A stretch of 64,000 bases of DNA from Botryosphaeria dothidea (lineage: Eukaryota; Ascomycota; Dothideomycetes; Botryosphaeriales; Botryosphaeriaceae): the NCBI GenBank assembly GCA_011503125.2, contig WWBZ02000051.1, positions 3,596,001-3,660,000 of the forward strand. Direction: 5' to 3'. Position numbers and translations under genes: made by a program. Within the stretch, counting starts at the first letter, position 1, and every line of letters begins with the position of its first letter. The notes beneath the pieces were generated by a model that was not told the origin of the DNA, searched no databases, and worked only from the letters and a program-made list of their open reading frames with translations. Positions 2-63,010 of this stretch are shown here, piece after piece.

Positions 2-2437
2 TCGGGCAAGCGGACCGTTCTGTACAACGCCAACCTGCCGCTGACGAACGGCCATCTGGTCGGGGCGCTGAGGGCGGCCGAGGCGGAGAGCTTCCATTGC
101 GTGCCGTATGCGCTGAAGGTGCTGGCGGAGACGGAGGACGGCGTGGAGGCGTTGAGGCGGTGTCGGCTGGTGTTGTTTGGCGGGAGCAGCTGTCCGGACG
201 AGCTGGGGGATATGCTGGTGGAGAGGGGAGTGTATATCGTGGGGCACTACGGCGCGTGAGTACAACTCTTTCCCCCTAGCAGAATTCGCTTGCTAATTCC
301 ATGAAGGACGGAGATGGGCCAGCTGATGACCTCGTTCCGCGACCCGGAGGACAAGGCGTGGAATTATGTCCGCCCGCTGCCGAAGGTCAAGCCGTACCTG
401 CGCTTTGTTCCTGCTGGAGAGGGTATCTTTGAGTGTGTGGTTTTGGATGGCCTGCCGTCGAAGGTGCTGTCGAACTCGGATGACCCGCCGAATTCGTATC
501 ATACGAGGGATACGTTCGTGCCGCATCCGACGTTGCCTGATGCATGGAAGTATCTGGGCCGTCTGGATGATCGCGTTACGCTTGTTAATGGCGAGAAGGT
601 GTTGCCCATCCCGTATGAGCACCGGATTCGCCAGGATGAACTGGTGCAGGATGCGCTGGTCTTCGGTGTGGGGAAGGCGTTTCCTGGACTGCTTGTCATT
701 CCGAGTGAAAAGGCTGCGGGGATGAGTAAGGAAGAGTTCTTGGATGCGCTAGAGCCTGCTATCAAGGCCGCGAATTCTCAAGCGGAGAAATTCGGGCAGA
801 TTTCAAGAGAGATGGTGGAGGTGCTGGAGGCCGGAGCCGACTATCCCAGGACGGATAAGGGAACAATGATTCGGGCGGCATGCTACATGAAGTTCGCAGA
901 CCTGATTGAGCAGATCTACATCCAGTTTGAGTCGGGTGATGGCAAGCAGAAGAAGAAGCTGGATGCTGAGGGCCTGAAGACGTACCTGGTAGATCTTTTC
1001 AACAACCGAGTCGGTGTCGAGGGCCTCGGCCTGGAAACAGACTTCTTCGATGCCGGCACGGATAGCCTTCAGGGAATCGCTGCCCGTGGGCACATCCAGC
1101 GCGAGATCGACCTCAATGGCTCCGTCCTGGGCCAGAACGTCGTCTTCGAGCACCCCTCCATCTCCAAGCTCGCCGCGTATCTCGACGCCCTCTCCAACGG
1201 CTCCGCCGTCCAGCAGAAATCCGAAATCGAGCTCATGCAAGAGCTCGTCGCCAAATACTCCACCTTCGCGCCCTTCACTCCCGGCACAACCACCCCCTCG
1301 CACGACACCGTCCTCCTAACCGGCGCAACCGGCTCCCTCGGCGCCCACATCCTTGCCCAACTCCTCCCGCTCCCACACATCGCCAAGATCTACTGCCTCG
1401 TCCGCGCGCCCAGCCCCTCCGCCGCCCACGACCGCGTCCGCGCCTCGCTCGCAACCCGGCGCCTCTCCCCTCCCCACCTCGCCTCCAAGCTCGTCGCCCT
1501 CCCGAGCGACCTCTCCGACCCGCACCTCGGCCTCCCCGCGCCCACCTACGCCGCCCTGCAAACTTCCGTCACTACCGTCCTGCACAGCGCCTGGGCCGTC
1601 AACTTCAACCTCGGCGTCTCCTCCTTCGAGGCCCAGCACATCGCCGGCACGCGCCACCTGCTCGCCCTCTGCCTCGCCGTGCCCTTCGCCCGTCCCGCCC
1701 GCTTCGCCTTCGTCTCCAGCATCTCCGCCGCCGCCGGCACGCCTATCCCCGCGACGGTGCCGGAATCCGTCGTCGCGGACCCGGCGCACGCCCAGCCGAT
1801 GGGGTACGCCCGCAGCAAGTGGGTCGCCGAGCACGTCGTCGACGCGGCGCGCCGGGCTAGCGGCGGCCGCGCGATCAGGGTGCTCCGGACGGGCCAGATC
1901 GTCGGGGACGCGGTGCACGGCGTGTGGAACGAGACGGAGGCCATCCCGCTGATGGTCCGGGCCGCGAAGGGCATCGGCGCGCTGCCGCGGCTGGATGAGC
2001 GGCCGGCGTGGCTGCCGGTGGATGCGTGTGCGGCGGCTGTCGTGCAGTTGTCGGACGCGGCCGTGCCGTTTGGGGGGGAGGAGGCGGCAGAGGGGGATGC
2101 GGGCGTGGTGTATCATGTGCAGAATTCGCGGACGTTTGCGTGGACGGAGGAGCTGTTGCCGGAGTTGCGGGCGGCGGGGTTGGTGTTTGAGGAGGTGGGG
2201 CAGAGGGAGTGGGTGGGCAGGCTGAGGGTCGGCGAGCAGGATCCGAAGAAGAATCCGACTGTCAAGCTTGTGGACTTCTTTGCGGAGAAGTATGATAATG
2301 ATAGGCCGGGGCGGAAGGGCTTGGTGTTTGCGACCGAGAAGACGGGGCAGAGGTCTGTGGTTATCAGGGATGGAGTGGACGTGATTCAAGGCGGAGTGGT
2401 GAGGAAGTGTGTGCAGGAATGGTTGAAGAATTGGTAG
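2..2437 (+). CDS. NRPS-like adenylation-thiolation-reductase enzyme (3' part, two exons)
   Basis: The gene is cut by the left edge of the window. Exons are 2..255 and 307..2437; intron 256..306 starts GTGAGT and contains a TGCTAAT branch site. Splicing joins the frame into YGATEMGQLM, which fits the A5 motif of adenylation domains. Next come an A8-like stretch (YLGRLDDRV), the A10 region (YPRTDKGTMIR), a carrier domain with GTDSL (phosphopantetheine Ser codon at 1064), and a Rossmann reductase domain (VLLTGATGSLGAH, YARSKW = YxxxK). This is the architecture of fungal adenylate-forming, Lys2-like reductases, which activate a carboxylic acid, load it on the carrier and release it reductively as aldehyde or alcohol. 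The N-terminal half of the adenylation domain lies outside the window, so the substrate cannot be guessed. No other biosynthetic gene is adjacent in the window. Confidence 0.93.
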
Positions 2438-6026: not shown

Positions 6027-6162
6027 GGCGTTGTGGCGGAGTGTAAGCAAGCCCATCAAGCATCATCACTCAAACATGAATTCTAATAAACTCTCAGGGT
6101 TATCGCGACAGACTAGAAATCTGTTTCCTTCGGGAGCACAAGTTCGAATCTTGTCAACGTCG
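6027..6162 (+). tRNA. tRNA-Ser(AGA) interrupted by a GT-AG intron in the D-loop
   Basis: Removing 6043..6097 leaves an 81-nt serine tRNA. The acceptor stem is GGCGTTG (6027..6033) with CAACGTC (6155..6161) and discriminator G. The D-stem is GCG/CGC, the anticodon stem-loop ACAGA-CTAGAAA-TCTGT gives anticodon AGA (6115..6117), there is a serine-type variable arm, and the T-arm is ACAAG-TTCGAAT-CTTGT. The 55-nt insert starts GTAAGC, has TTCTAATA near its end and finishes CTCTCAG, so it looks like a spliceosomal intron. It lies just before the invariant D-loop GG. The B box is intact, the A box is nearly intact because the intron's own first G extends it, and a T7 Pol III terminator follows at 6165..6171. 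This is not the position of canonical tRNA introns (3' of position 37). It could also be a dead copy, but the exact restoration of the tRNA argues against that. Confidence 0.88.
6043..6097 (+). other. Spliceosomal-type intron inside tRNA-Ser
   Basis: 55 nt with donor GTAAGC, branch-like TCTAAT 12-18 nt from the end, and acceptor CTCAG. It has the same six-base donor and nearly the same length as the element in the tRNA-Phe gene 0.5 kb downstream. Confidence 0.8.
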
Positions 6163-6164
6163 AA

Positions 6165-6171
6165 TTTTTTT
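6165..6171 (+). terminator. RNA polymerase III terminator (T7)
   Basis: A run of seven T two bases after the tRNA-Ser discriminator base, as expected for Pol III termination. Confidence 0.85.
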
Positions 6172-6600: not shown

Positions 6601-6630
6601 GCAGCTTTAGCTCACTTGGGAGAGCGCCAG

Positions 6631-6684
6631 GTAAGCATCAACACCATCAGCTATTGCTCGCACCAGTAACTAACAACTCCCTAG
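6631..6684 (+). other. Spliceosomal-type intron inside tRNA-Phe
   Basis: 54 nt with GTAAGC donor, a textbook ACTAAC branch site ending 11 nt before the CTAG acceptor. It is placed where tRNA splicing endonuclease does not normally cut. Confidence 0.85.
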
Positions 6685-6691
6685 ACTGAAG

Positions 6692-6723
6692 TTCACTTCA
6701 GCCATCAGCATCATCTGTGCGGT
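6692..6723 (+). other. Canonical tRNA-Phe anticodon-loop intron
   Basis: 32 nt inserted after position 37. It contains CTTCAG, able to pair with the anticodon loop, as in other fungal tRNA-Phe introns. Confidence 0.85.
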
Positions 6724-6759
6724 ATCTGGAGGTACTGTGTTCGATCCACAGAAGCTGCA

Positions 6760-7417
6760 AGGAATTCGAGGTCCTTACCAGTCTGAGACTGGCTGTAAGC
6801 CTTTCTTTTTGCTCTTGCGCAGGAGCTATGGGTTTGGAGGATGGTGTGGATGCATGGGTGCCAGGAGGCTATACACAATTCCTGGAAAATTGACGAGTCG
6901 AGAGCAGGTACAGCAGTGGGGAAAATATTGGTCATTGCAATTGACCCCAATTTAAGAACAAGGTTGGGGAATAGGTGCAGAATCCAAACTTCTTAATGGG
7001 TGTGATGATACAAAAGGCCTGCCCCGTCAGATCTCCCGGAAACATTTCTCTGCTGAATTTGAGAACTAATTATGAACGCCGGATTCCATTTGCAATCTTG
7101 TCTTTCATAAGGTTGAAAGTTCATAATATGTCACACACGAAGAACCAATTGTTTGAGTACCGTATCTATGTTCGCGCAGTGACAAAGGGAATCCAATTGC
7201 TTCAAGAAATAATCATGCCAAAGAATCACTATATCGACCACAGTATATGTGGCTGATATGGGATTGAGGACGGCACAGCTAAACCGCAAGGACGGACTGA
7301 GGCCATCCAAATACAGCGCTTATGATGATTTATGGACACGCAAACATTAAGACAAGGTGACTCGTTTGGTTTCTTCCTGAAAGGCATGAATGTGCCCCGG
7401 AACAGACTATATGCTGC
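6760..7417. other. Intergenic
   Basis: Only the T-rich tract 6801..6810 stands out. No gene seen. Confidence 0.5.
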
Positions 7418-13510: not shown

Positions 13511-13592
13511 GCCCGCATGGCTTAGTGGTACAGCGTCGCACTCGTAGAAAACGGTAATGCGAAGATCCCTGGTTCGATTCCGGGTGTGGGCA
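13511..13592 (+). tRNA. tRNA-Thr(CGT) with ordinary 10-nt intron
   Basis: The acceptor stem is GCCCGCA/TGTGGGC with discriminator A. The D-arm (GGCTTAGTGGTACAGC) is normal. The anticodon stem is TCGCA/TGCGA with anticodon CGT followed by A37, then a 10-nt intron (GAAAACGGTA, about 13547..13556), then position 38. The T-arm is CCTGG-TTCGATT-CCGGG and the B box is perfect. A T4 run at 13623..13626 may terminate transcription. It has no spliceosomal-type insertion, so it is an internal contrast to the two tRNAs at 6.0-6.8 kb. Confidence 0.93.
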
Positions 13593-60164: not shown

Positions 60165-63010
60165 ATGCTCAATATGTGGACCATCCTTTTCGCTCTCTTT
60201 GCCTCCATAGCATTCAGCCATGCAGCAACCACCACCAATCGTTTCATCGTCGAGCTCGCTGCGGACGAGGTAAAAGGCCCCAATTTACTACACCAAAAGT
60301 GCACTGACCTCCCCCAGACCCCCGACAACGCCATAAACGAGATCCGCAACTCCTTCCACGGCCACGGAACCGCCCCGTCCGTCACCACAACCTACACCTA
60401 CAACTCGCCCTACCTCAACGGGCTCTCCATCGCCGTCGACACCGCGACCTCGACCTTCACCTACGACACGCTCGCCCACCACATCCGCTCGCTCCGCCGC
60501 ATCGAGCGCGTCTATCCGGTCCGCCGCCTCTCGCTGTCCCCGGCCATCACGCAGAACCCCGCGCGCCCGCCCGCGTCCGGCGTCGCGCCGCCGCGTTCGG
60601 CCTCCAACATCCACCGCTTTACCGGCGTCGCGGCGCTGCACGAGTTGGGCTTCCGCGGCAAGGGCTCCACCATCGCCGTCATCGACACCGGCGCCGACTA
60701 CCTCAACCCGTTCCTGTCGGGCGGCATCGGCGGCGACCACCGCGTCTCGTACGGCTACGATCTCGTGGGCGACAACATCCGGCCGCCGCGCGTGCCCGTG
60801 CACGATGGCGATCCGTACAGCGAGTGCCAGGCGCACGGCACGCACGTTGCGGGCATCATTGGCGCGGTGGCGCCCGGGCTGGAGCTCGTGGGCGTGGCGC
60901 CGGAGGCGAAGCTGGAGATCTATCGGGTGTTTGACTGCGAGGGGATTACGGAGACGGATATTGTGGTGGATGCGGTGTTGAGGGCGGCGGCGAGGAGGGT
61001 GGATGTGATAAATCTGAGTTTGGGCGGCGGCGGGCCGTTTGAGGAGGGTAGGTTTCCTCTATTCAACGGGCTGCAAGAGCATTGGGGAGAGAGGGTTTGT
61101 GAGGCATTGCTGATGGTATTGCAGATGCCATCAGCGCCGTGTTGTCGAGAGTCAACAACAACGGGACGACGTACTGTGTGGCTTCCATGGGGAATGACGG
61201 CCGGAACGGGACCTTTACTTCGACAGCCCCTAGTGCCGGTCTTGATGTGCCAGCGATCGGATCCTTTGTGACGACCGAAGGCAAGACTCCTGGATGGCTG
61301 GCAAATTACACCGTTGGCACCAACGCTACGCAGAACCACTTCCTCTGGCTCCCATCTGACCGGAGCATTTTCCCACTCGTTCTGGACCTGTACGTGCTGA
61401 CTCTCAACACCACCGTCGAGGATGATGCTTGTGCGCCCCTTCCTCCTTCGACTCCGAATTTAGCGAATCGTCTCGTGCTCGTTCGCCGGGGCAAATGTCC
61501 GTTCGTTAAGAAGATGGAGCACGTACTGGCAAAGGGAGGAAAACACGTTTTGATCTACAACAACCGACCGGGAAATGATCCCTTTGGAGTGTTAGAGGCT
61601 GCCAATGGTACGCTTGGTGTAGCTGGTATGGGTGGAAAGGATGGCTTGGATTTGGTCCGCGCATTCGCTGCAACAGGTAGGATCCAGGTCACCATGAACA
61701 CCACCGTTTATCCAACTACCGCCTTCATAACTAGGAACAATCAGACCGCTGGACAGATGAGTGCATTCAGCAGCATGGGGCCTCCCGCGCTGGGATACAT
61801 CAAGCCTACCGTCTCAGCACCAGGAGATCTGATCCTCTCGACTGTCCCTCGCAAGGATGGATACTTCAGCAACCTCAGCGGCACCTCCATGGCAACCCCG
61901 TATATGTCAGGAGTCGTTGCTCTTCTGAAAAAAGCACGCCCACAGCTTTCCTTTAAGCAGATTACAACCCTCCTCGCGACGACGGCCACGCCCACACAGT
62001 TCGGCGATGGATCCAACTTTTCGTATCCTTTCCTCGCCCCAGCATGGCAGCAAGGCGGAGGCCTTGTCTCAGCACTCAGTGCCTACCAATGCCAAACTCT
62101 TTTAGATAAAGAGGCCATTTCGTTCAACGACACCGCCCATTTCGAGCGCGAGCTGTCCTTCACCGTCCGGAACATCGGCAACCTGCCGCAGGACTACCAG
62201 CTCTCCAACCTCCCCGCGGTCACCGCCCACTCCTTCCGCGGCAACGGCGACCCCAACCCGATCAAGTTCTTCGCCAACGCATCCGCATTCATTCCCAACA
62301 AGGAGTTCACCCTCAGCCTGACCCCTGACTTCGCCAGCATCGACGTCTTCCCCCACACCTTCTCCCTCGCGCCCGGCGCCGCCCAACGCGTCACCGTCTC
62401 CGCCGACATCAGCATGTTCGAAGGCCTGCGCCCCAAGTGCCCGCTCTTCAGCGGCTGGATCGCCATCAACGGCACGCGCGACTCGCTCTCGCTGCCGTGG
62501 GGCGCCATCGGCTGCTCGCTCTACGACCTCCCCGTCATCGACCGCAACGAGACTCTGACCCACCTCGTCGCAGCCACCAACGAGACCGAGTACAACGCGA
62601 CCCTCAAGACCACCTTCGCCCTGCCGCGCATCGAGCCCAACCGCGTCTTCACCCTGCCCAAAACGAACGACAGCGTCGCGCAGCTGGGCGTCGTGTTTCC
62701 GTGGCTGCAGTACAAGTTCAGCATGTTCACGCGCTTCGCGAACATCGACCTGCTGAGCGGGAACGGGTCGTGGGTGGCGAGGCTTCTCGATCAGAACACC
62801 ACAACCGATGCGGAGCGGGTGACGGTGGCGTTTCAGAATTTTACGGGGCTGTTGCCGTGGGGCGAGTGGGCGGACGAGGGCCAGTATCGGTTCAATCTGA
62901 GCGCGCTGAGGCTGTATGGGAATCCGAATGATACGGCAGATTATAAGGAGTGGGTTGTCAGCGATCCGTTTATCATTCGGTATCAGCATGAGAATAATAC
63001 GAGCCTTTAG
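60165..63010 (+). CDS. Secreted subtilisin-like serine protease (S8) with PA domain
   Basis: Exons are 60165..60269, 60318..61047 and 61125..63010. Intron 1 (48 nt: GTAAAA, CACTGAC, CCCCAG) is in frame and stop-free, but its removal gives the better propeptide (LAADETPDN). Intron 2 (77 nt, GTAGGT...GCTGATG...TTGCAG) is required. The product is 906 aa. A signal peptide (FALFASIAFSHAA) is followed by an I9-like propeptide. The catalytic triad is Asp158 (VIDTGAD), His208 (AHGTHVAGIIG) and Ser533 (GTSMATP). A protease-associated domain (RRGKCPFVKKMEHVLAKGG) is inserted before the Ser, and a beta-rich C-terminal domain follows, as in large fungal extracellular subtilases. Many NxT/S sites suggest glycosylation. 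It probably degrades extracellular protein. Confidence 0.92.

Follow-up and report, generated by a model that had tools for sequence, protein, structure and literature searches.

Spliceosomal-like introns in tRNA-Phe and other tRNA genes of the fungus Botryosphaeria dothidea

Textbook accounts tie nuclear tRNA introns to TSEN and spliceosomal introns chiefly to mRNA, while here signatures of both occur in tRNA genes. RNAs made by Pol III are normally short and uncapped and are expected to be poor substrates for the spliceosome, with U6 as the precedent. The U6 snRNA genes of fission yeast and other fungi carry mRNA-type introns, likewise placing a short spliceosomal intron in a structured-RNA gene of Pol III. 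Going by the titles of work by Tani and Ohshima in 1989 and by Canzler in 2016, such introns were reportedly gained repeatedly in fungi; the first-pass annotation of the present locus had also named the U6 intron of fission yeast as a precedent for an mRNA-type intron in a Pol III RNA. U6 is one family without a second splicing system, whereas here ten isoacceptors are concerned, most of which have a canonical tRNA intron as well. Of three U6 loci in B. dothidea itself, the two best lack an intron (the third is at C18:304005). Spliceosomal introns are also said, from the title of a 1993 paper by Rogers, to occur in fungal nuclear 18S rDNA, again mRNA-type introns in a non-coding structured RNA, but in rRNA rather than tRNA.

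Fungal U3 snoRNA genes contain normal GT-AG spliceosomal introns, and intron-bearing and intron-free paralogues are found in one genome (accessible part of PMC5832005). The likeness to the genes described below lies in spliceosomal introns within a small structured RNA with mixed paralogues, and the difference in the RNA, a snoRNA and not a tRNA. According to the accessible part of the same 2017 study (PMC5832005), frequent interruption by an intron was so far known for no small structured RNA except U3 and U6. Extra introns in the D, anticodon and T arms, beside the canonical one, are known from tRNA genes of Crenarchaeota, nucleomorphs and Cyanidioschyzon merolae; in archaea and C. merolae such introns go with bulge-helix-bulge (BHB) motifs and the splicing endonuclease, and the splicing mode of the 3-24-nt tRNA introns of Guillardia theta is said to be unknown (accessible part of the review PMC4090602). 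Unlike these, the inserts reported here are 51-61 nt long, run from GT to AG, carry a branch motif and have hardly conserved interiors. The word stem "spliceosom" is absent from the main text of that tRNA-intron review (PMC4090602). As far as the accessible text goes, the open-access literature searched (subscription papers and preprints lie outside it) does not describe a spliceosomal intron in any nuclear tRNA gene; the first-pass annotation likewise knew of no described fungal case. The accessible parts of PMC11782384, PMC13149111, PMC8393795 and PMC6461891 describe no such intron, and the sole promising phrase, "non-spliceosomal splicing of tRNAs", is a reference title in the accessible part of PMC13247085.

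The tRNA-Phe gene compared with these systems lies in the window, by which we mean the whole 64,000-nucleotide stretch of B. dothidea contig WWBZ02000051.1 that was analysed (Table 1). The borders first proposed for its two inserts proved exact, and excision of both leaves a perfect tRNA-Phe(GAA) of 73 nt, called Phe(gaa) by ARAGORN. The inserts themselves are also as originally described: the first, at 30/31, has the GTAAGC start, an ACTAAC motif and a CTAG end, and the second sits at the canonical site after 37. By position, by pairing with the anticodon region and by conservation, insert 2 belongs with the canonical eukaryotic tRNA introns, from which insert 1 differs in its site and its spliceosomal signals. 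The comparison of spliced and unspliced sequences suggested in the first-pass annotation was run with ARAGORN: the spliced gene is Phe(gaa), and the unspliced gene is misread as tRNA-Arg(gcg) with a misplaced intron. If insert 1 alone is excised, the call is tRNA-Phe(gaa) and the 32-nt intron is placed at 38. An ARAGORN scan of the whole window (bacterial code) returned zero tRNA genes, and the only Rfam matches in the window at gathering score are a tRNA-Thr(CGT) at 13511-13592 and one U2. A tRNA-Ser(AGA) gene, located 440 bases upstream of tRNA-Phe and absent from the first-pass annotation, has a spliceosomal-like intron of its own. This insert is present in 3/4 of the Ser(AGA) copies found; the paralogue at C12:5039494 (L039) is without it.

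Table 1. Features of the interrupted tRNA-Ser(AGA) and tRNA-Phe genes in the window
Feature	Position	Strand	Remark
tRNA-Ser(AGA) exon 1	6027..6042	+	
D-loop spliceosomal-like intron of tRNA-Ser before G18, GTAAGC...CTAAT...CTCAG, 55 nt	6043..6097	+	
Branch-site motif CTAAT of tRNA-Ser intron	6083..6087	+	
tRNA-Ser(AGA) exon 2	6098..6162	+	without intron after 37
T7 run, likely Pol III terminator of tRNA-Ser	6165..6171	+	
tRNA-Phe exon 1, positions 1-30, A box region	6601..6630	+	A box by eye; identical in 5 copies
Insert 1, U2-type spliceosomal-like intron at 30/31, GTAAGC...CCCTAG, 54 nt	6631..6684	+	shared site in 5/5 Phe, interior diverged
Branch-site motif CTAAC in insert 1	6670..6674	+	presumed branch A 6673, 11 nt before intron end
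tRNA-Phe exon 2, 7-nt micro-exon ACTGAAG bearing anticodon GAA	6685..6691	+	
Insert 2, canonical tRNA intron after 37, 32 nt	6692..6723	+	CTTCAG complementary to anticodon-region CTGAAG
tRNA-Phe exon 3	6724..6759	+	B box GTTCGATCC at 6739-6747
3'-trailer hairpin CCAGTCTGAGACTGG of tRNA-Phe	6778..6792	+	conserved
First T5 run 3' of tRNA-Phe (+47), likely Pol III terminator	6806..6810	+	

A DNA search of the organism's own genome (51.7 Mb assembly) found 5 tRNA-Phe genes, and all five have insert 1 at 30/31, followed by exon 2 ACTGAAG and a canonical intron of 30-34 nt after 37. Their mature sequences are identical at 73/73 nt, and once the inserts are removed ARAGORN reports a cloverleaf with GAA anticodon, tRNA-Phe(gaa), for 5/5 copies. 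Among these genes, insert 1 is 51-58 nt long and starts with GTAAGC, GTCAGT (three copies) or GTTCGT; its branch motif is CTAAC or CTAAT, with the second A 11 nt before the end, and the terminus is TAG or CAG. Insert 2 has the marks of a canonical intron throughout, given by ARAGORN as i(38,30-34) in 5/5 and with CTGAAG/CTTCAG visible in all. Mean pairwise identity among the five genes is 54% for insert 1 interiors, versus 49% for shuffled sequence, and 86% for insert 2; the 40-nt flanks average 52% (5') and 68% (3').

Many intact tRNA-Phe copies elsewhere were one of the conditions under which the first-pass annotation would have regarded the window gene as a dead copy, but no uninterrupted junction was found in the assembly. 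A pattern search of the assembly with the contiguous 30/31 junction, allowing ≤2 mismatches, produced 2 matches, neither of them tRNA-like, and the reversed pattern used as control gave 3 matches versus these 2 (both at 2 mismatches). The joined sequence GAGAGCGCCAG/ACTGAAG (junction GCGCCAG/ACTGAAG) was not found in the assembly within 1 mismatch. Scanning genome and viral contig collections with exon 1 plus GT returned 48 and 3 stretches, respectively, none resembling an interrupted fungal tRNA-Phe; by eye, they are bacterial-type tRNAs or unrelated sequence.

Similar inserts are present in other tRNA genes. We found 25 interrupted tRNA loci, or 23 when Val(CAC) copy 2 and the third Ala(CGC) locus are discounted as likely assembly duplicates, and they fall into ten isoacceptors: Phe (5), Ser(AGA) (3), Ala(TGC) (1), Ala(AGC) (3), Ala(CGC) (3), Leu(CAG) (3), Val(CAC) (2), Pro(AGG) (2), Pro(TGG) (2) and Glu(TTC) (1). 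Nine positions are interrupted, with tRNA position numbers assigned by eye: 10/11, 16/18, 18/19, 19/20, 24/25, 25/26, 30/31 (Phe and Glu), 55/56 and 57/58. Every parsed gene except the three Ser also has a canonical intron after 37. The survey is not a census, and the counts of loci and isoacceptors are lower bounds (at least ten isoacceptors). The tRNA-Ala(TGC), with a T-loop insert, surfaced as a poor Rfam tRNA hit (27.6 bits), and an own-genome search with it gave no match beyond Ala(TGC) itself. The Glu(TTC), Leu, Val, Ala(AGC), Pro(AGG) and Pro(TGG) loci came from patterns combining branch site, AG and B box, plus follow-up of a B-box pattern whose listed matches were dominated by a repeat. 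The branch-site patterns require a CTAAY intron followed by a good B box, and they also bring up many matches that are not tRNA, one of them giving, for example, 36 matches, mostly noise, versus 65 for a control pattern. A search for intron-free Pro genes turned up one intron-free Pro(AGG), one Pro(CGG) without such an insert and, in addition, the three Ala(CGC) loci with T-loop inserts. By eye, Glu(CTC), Asp, Cys, Arg(CCG) and the window Thr(CGT) have the canonical intron only, which in Thr(CGT) is short. In an RF00005 scan, 63 of 1497 candidates were scored and 61 lay above the cut-off, 16 of them on C14/C26 (taken as mitochondrial); no spliceosomal-type insert was seen by eye among the 45 other hits, from a model that favours uninterrupted genes.

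The splice signals could be compared in 24 fully parsed inserts, a set that keeps the duplicate Val and leaves out the third Ala(CGC) locus, which was covered only in part. These inserts are 51-61 nt long, and all 24 start with GT, have G at position 5 and end in AG. Against GTRWGT, the 5' sites have A3 in 18/24, A4 in 20/24 and T6 in 20/24, as expected of U2-type introns, and the 3' ends are CAG (15), TAG (7) or AAG (2), making 22 YAG. The branch motif, also of U2 type, is CTAAY in 23/24 and TTAAC in 1/24, and the distance from branch A to intron end is 9-14 nt (11 nt in 16/24). For a random insert of window composition, the chance of a GTNNG start, an AG end and YTAAY 9-14 nt before the end is about 1.5e-5. 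In the genes obtained with branch-site patterns, branch and AG were search criteria, so that independent evidence from these genes comes just from the 5' end and the exact tRNA join; the Phe, Ser, Ala(TGC) and Ala(CGC) genes were found without selection on a branch motif. Insert interiors look largely unconstrained, with mean identities of 42-58% within six families versus 41-49% in shuffles and 90-100% in exons. The inserts match the consensus of Fusarium coding introns (CTRAY 91%, YAG/R 94%; accessible part of PMC5677156), which, together with one coding intron of this genome, served as reference. That intron, at window 256-306, is 51 nt long, has GTGAGT, CTAAT and AAG, an anatomy like that of the tRNA inserts, and is supported by a 17-residue gap at this place in the alignment of four homologous proteins. 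Strict intron-like patterns are not enriched in the window (7, against an average of 9.3 over 20 shuffles); motif matches by themselves are therefore poor evidence, and the weight rests on the tRNA context.

The same inserts might instead be archaeal-type non-canonical introns, in which TSEN would cut a BHB at each insert and remove both introns of tRNA-Phe. Two of the positions, 25/26 and 30/31, are indeed known archaeal tRNA intron sites (accessible part of PMC4090602), and an intron-exon helix H4 can be formed with 3 or 4 of 4 pairs in 16/24 inserts; in three Phe copies and one Pro(TGG) it is 4/4, which ≤2% of other positions in the same tRNA equal. However, H4 stays below 4/4 in Phe copies 1 and 3, short of a full BHB, and the intron-internal helix hC is at chance level (mean 0.83 of 3 pairs versus 0.89 in shuffles). 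Insert 1 interiors are also hardly conserved when set against the TSEN-type insert 2 of the same Phe genes, and nothing about BHB introns would call for a common GTNNG, AG, YTAAY 9-14 nt from the end and length of 51-61 nt, even if branch and AG were partly selected for. Despite the partial H4, hC, poor conservation and shared spliceosomal signals speak against BHB cleavage by TSEN for insert 1, and we regard it as very improbable.

Removal of the insert restored the expected ARAGORN isotype and anticodon in 22/24 genes (20/22 plus 2/2), the exceptions being two Leu genes called Gly(ccc). Unspliced, and with introns of ≤200 nt allowed, the right isotype and anticodon were obtained in 2/24, with a misplaced intron, and two further Leu genes had the right amino acid only. 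The restoration count is based on versions with insert 1 removed, because the hand-placed borders of the canonical intron were off in 10/22 fully spliced sequences, for which the ARAGORN anticodon was missing or wrong. For Ser(AGA), Glu(TTC) and Pro(AGG), paralogues without the intron display empty sites and confirm the joints. Over the 5' exon plus 20 nt, the Ser joint has 1/36 mismatches for the closest copy and 2/36 for the window copy, and the Pro joint 0/37; the Glu joint has 10/50, located after the joint within the canonical intron.

Where the insert precedes the T arm, the B-box motif GTTCRANNC is exonic in 21/21 genes and intronic in none; it is GTTCGATCC in 5/5 Phe genes, which have an A box in exon 1 by eye. 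In the three genes with a split T loop, GTTCGANNC lies within the insert in 3/3, at insert nucleotide 5 or 13, and none has an exonic B box, although two of the three are Ala(CGC) paralogues and not necessarily independent. An intronic B box in split T loops is expected if the unspliced gene has to remain readable by Pol III. These observations bear on the possibility that the interrupted genes are dead or decaying tRNA copies with chance inserts. Short D- or T-arm insertions in single eukaryotic tRNA genes are considered likely pseudogenes (accessible part of the review PMC4090602), and in some single genes, Ala(TGC) for one, an acceptor mismatch can be seen by eye. Yet 5/5 tRNA-Phe genes found are interrupted, with identical exons and with no intact Phe gene found, the inserts are regular, and even genes whose exonic B box is split by the insert possess one. 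We reject the dead-copy reading, to which we give almost no weight.

Termination signals differ among the families. The first T4+ run is 45-49 nt past the five Phe genes and 35-36 nt past the three Ala(AGC) genes, and the lack of a T4 run within 34 nt downstream of both is unusual for a Pol III gene. A T4+ run 2-12 nt past the end is present in all 14 parsed genes outside Phe and Ala(AGC, CGC). The Phe trailers form a hairpin (CCAGTCTnAGACTGG type) with a 7-pair core stem, in which 33/35 cells are paired across the five trailers; one copy carries a core pair with both bases altered. A different conserved trailer hairpin, CTGG..CCAG, is shared by the three Ala(AGC) genes. Late T4+ runs and conserved trailer hairpins in these two families, along with the occurrence of tRNA-related repeats in the same genome, would suit spliceosomal introns of Pol II transcripts containing tRNA-like sequence (host-gene or SINE-like) rather than functional Pol III tRNAs. 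Against this, the interrupted copies are the sole tRNA-Phe genes found, each T-loop intron contains a B box and the 14 other parsed genes have their T4+ runs close by. The 24 inserts contain 0 T5 runs and 2 of T4, which is weak evidence, since approximately one T5 would be expected by chance in that amount of sequence. A SINE or Pol II origin is least disfavoured for the two families with long trailers, Phe and Ala(AGC), where it is still unlikely, and for the interrupted genes as a whole it seems extremely improbable. Group I or II self-splicing introns are dismissed, as 51-61 nt is too short for them and the window has Rfam matches at gathering score only to U2 and tRNA.

Judging from sequence features, insert 1 is very probably a spliceosomal intron of U2 type that interrupts a Pol III tRNA gene; these features are the anatomy, its recurrence, the restored tRNAs, the paralogues of three families, the contrast in conservation and the intronic B box. 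Pol III would read the entire gene from the internal A and B boxes, the major spliceosome would excise the 54-nt GT-AG intron with the branch A at 6673, and TSEN and tRNA ligase would remove the canonical 32-nt intron after 37. The spliceosome probably acts before TSEN, since TSEN reads the anticodon arm, which insert 1 interrupts. The same anatomy in 25 loci and ten isoacceptors suggests that the spliceosome is a regular step in tRNA maturation, apparently an unavoidable one for tRNA-Phe. On a broader level, tRNA genes of this fungal lineage have probably gained spliceosomal introns repeatedly (nine positions in at least ten isoacceptors), which would make the major spliceosome essential for tRNA maturation and indispensable for tRNA-Phe. 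Most of these tRNAs would then need two unrelated splicing systems, and part of the promoter would itself be spliced out where the T loop is split.

If true, the spliceosome would be able to handle short, abundant Pol III transcripts at large scale, and translation capacity would be linked directly to splicing. Such introns could also account for tRNA genes overlooked by annotation, given that ARAGORN misreads or misses the unspliced genes. The paralogues with and without introns offer natural material for studies of intron gain.

Several further observations were made in this genome. For one window protein, which has a 100% match from source lgn, the best named relative is from Macrophomina phaseolina MS6 (85% identity), ahead of Neofusicoccum, Lasiodiplodia and Diplodia, as would suit a fungus of Botryosphaeriaceae. 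There are 35 U2-like loci above the Rfam cut-off genome-wide, including the window copy at 58034-57843 (-). In 20 of the 35, the branch-recognition stretch after AGATCA was compared: four loci have AGTGTAGTAT, seven have ATTGTAGTAA (among them two pairs of likely assembly duplicates) and five, the window copy included, have AGTGAAGTGA, with four further forms occurring once each. U2 stem IIa has compensating variation by eye. A U2 variant family with altered branch recognition would merit separate study. Near-identical tRNA, U6 and U2 loci lie at constant or similar offsets on C3/C12, C36/C78 and C36/C69, which suggests uncollapsed haplotypes or segmental duplications. A repeated element with B box GGTTCGAATCCGGGTGGGGACTG followed by T runs (e.g., C1:12703), present on several contigs among the matches listed, looks like a SINE related to tRNA. 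Finally, a subtilase gene at window 60165-63007 has two overlapping frames, split near 61090, and a 98% identical protein of 948 aa is continuous over the split; either the window sequence differs slightly in frame or a very short intron lies there.
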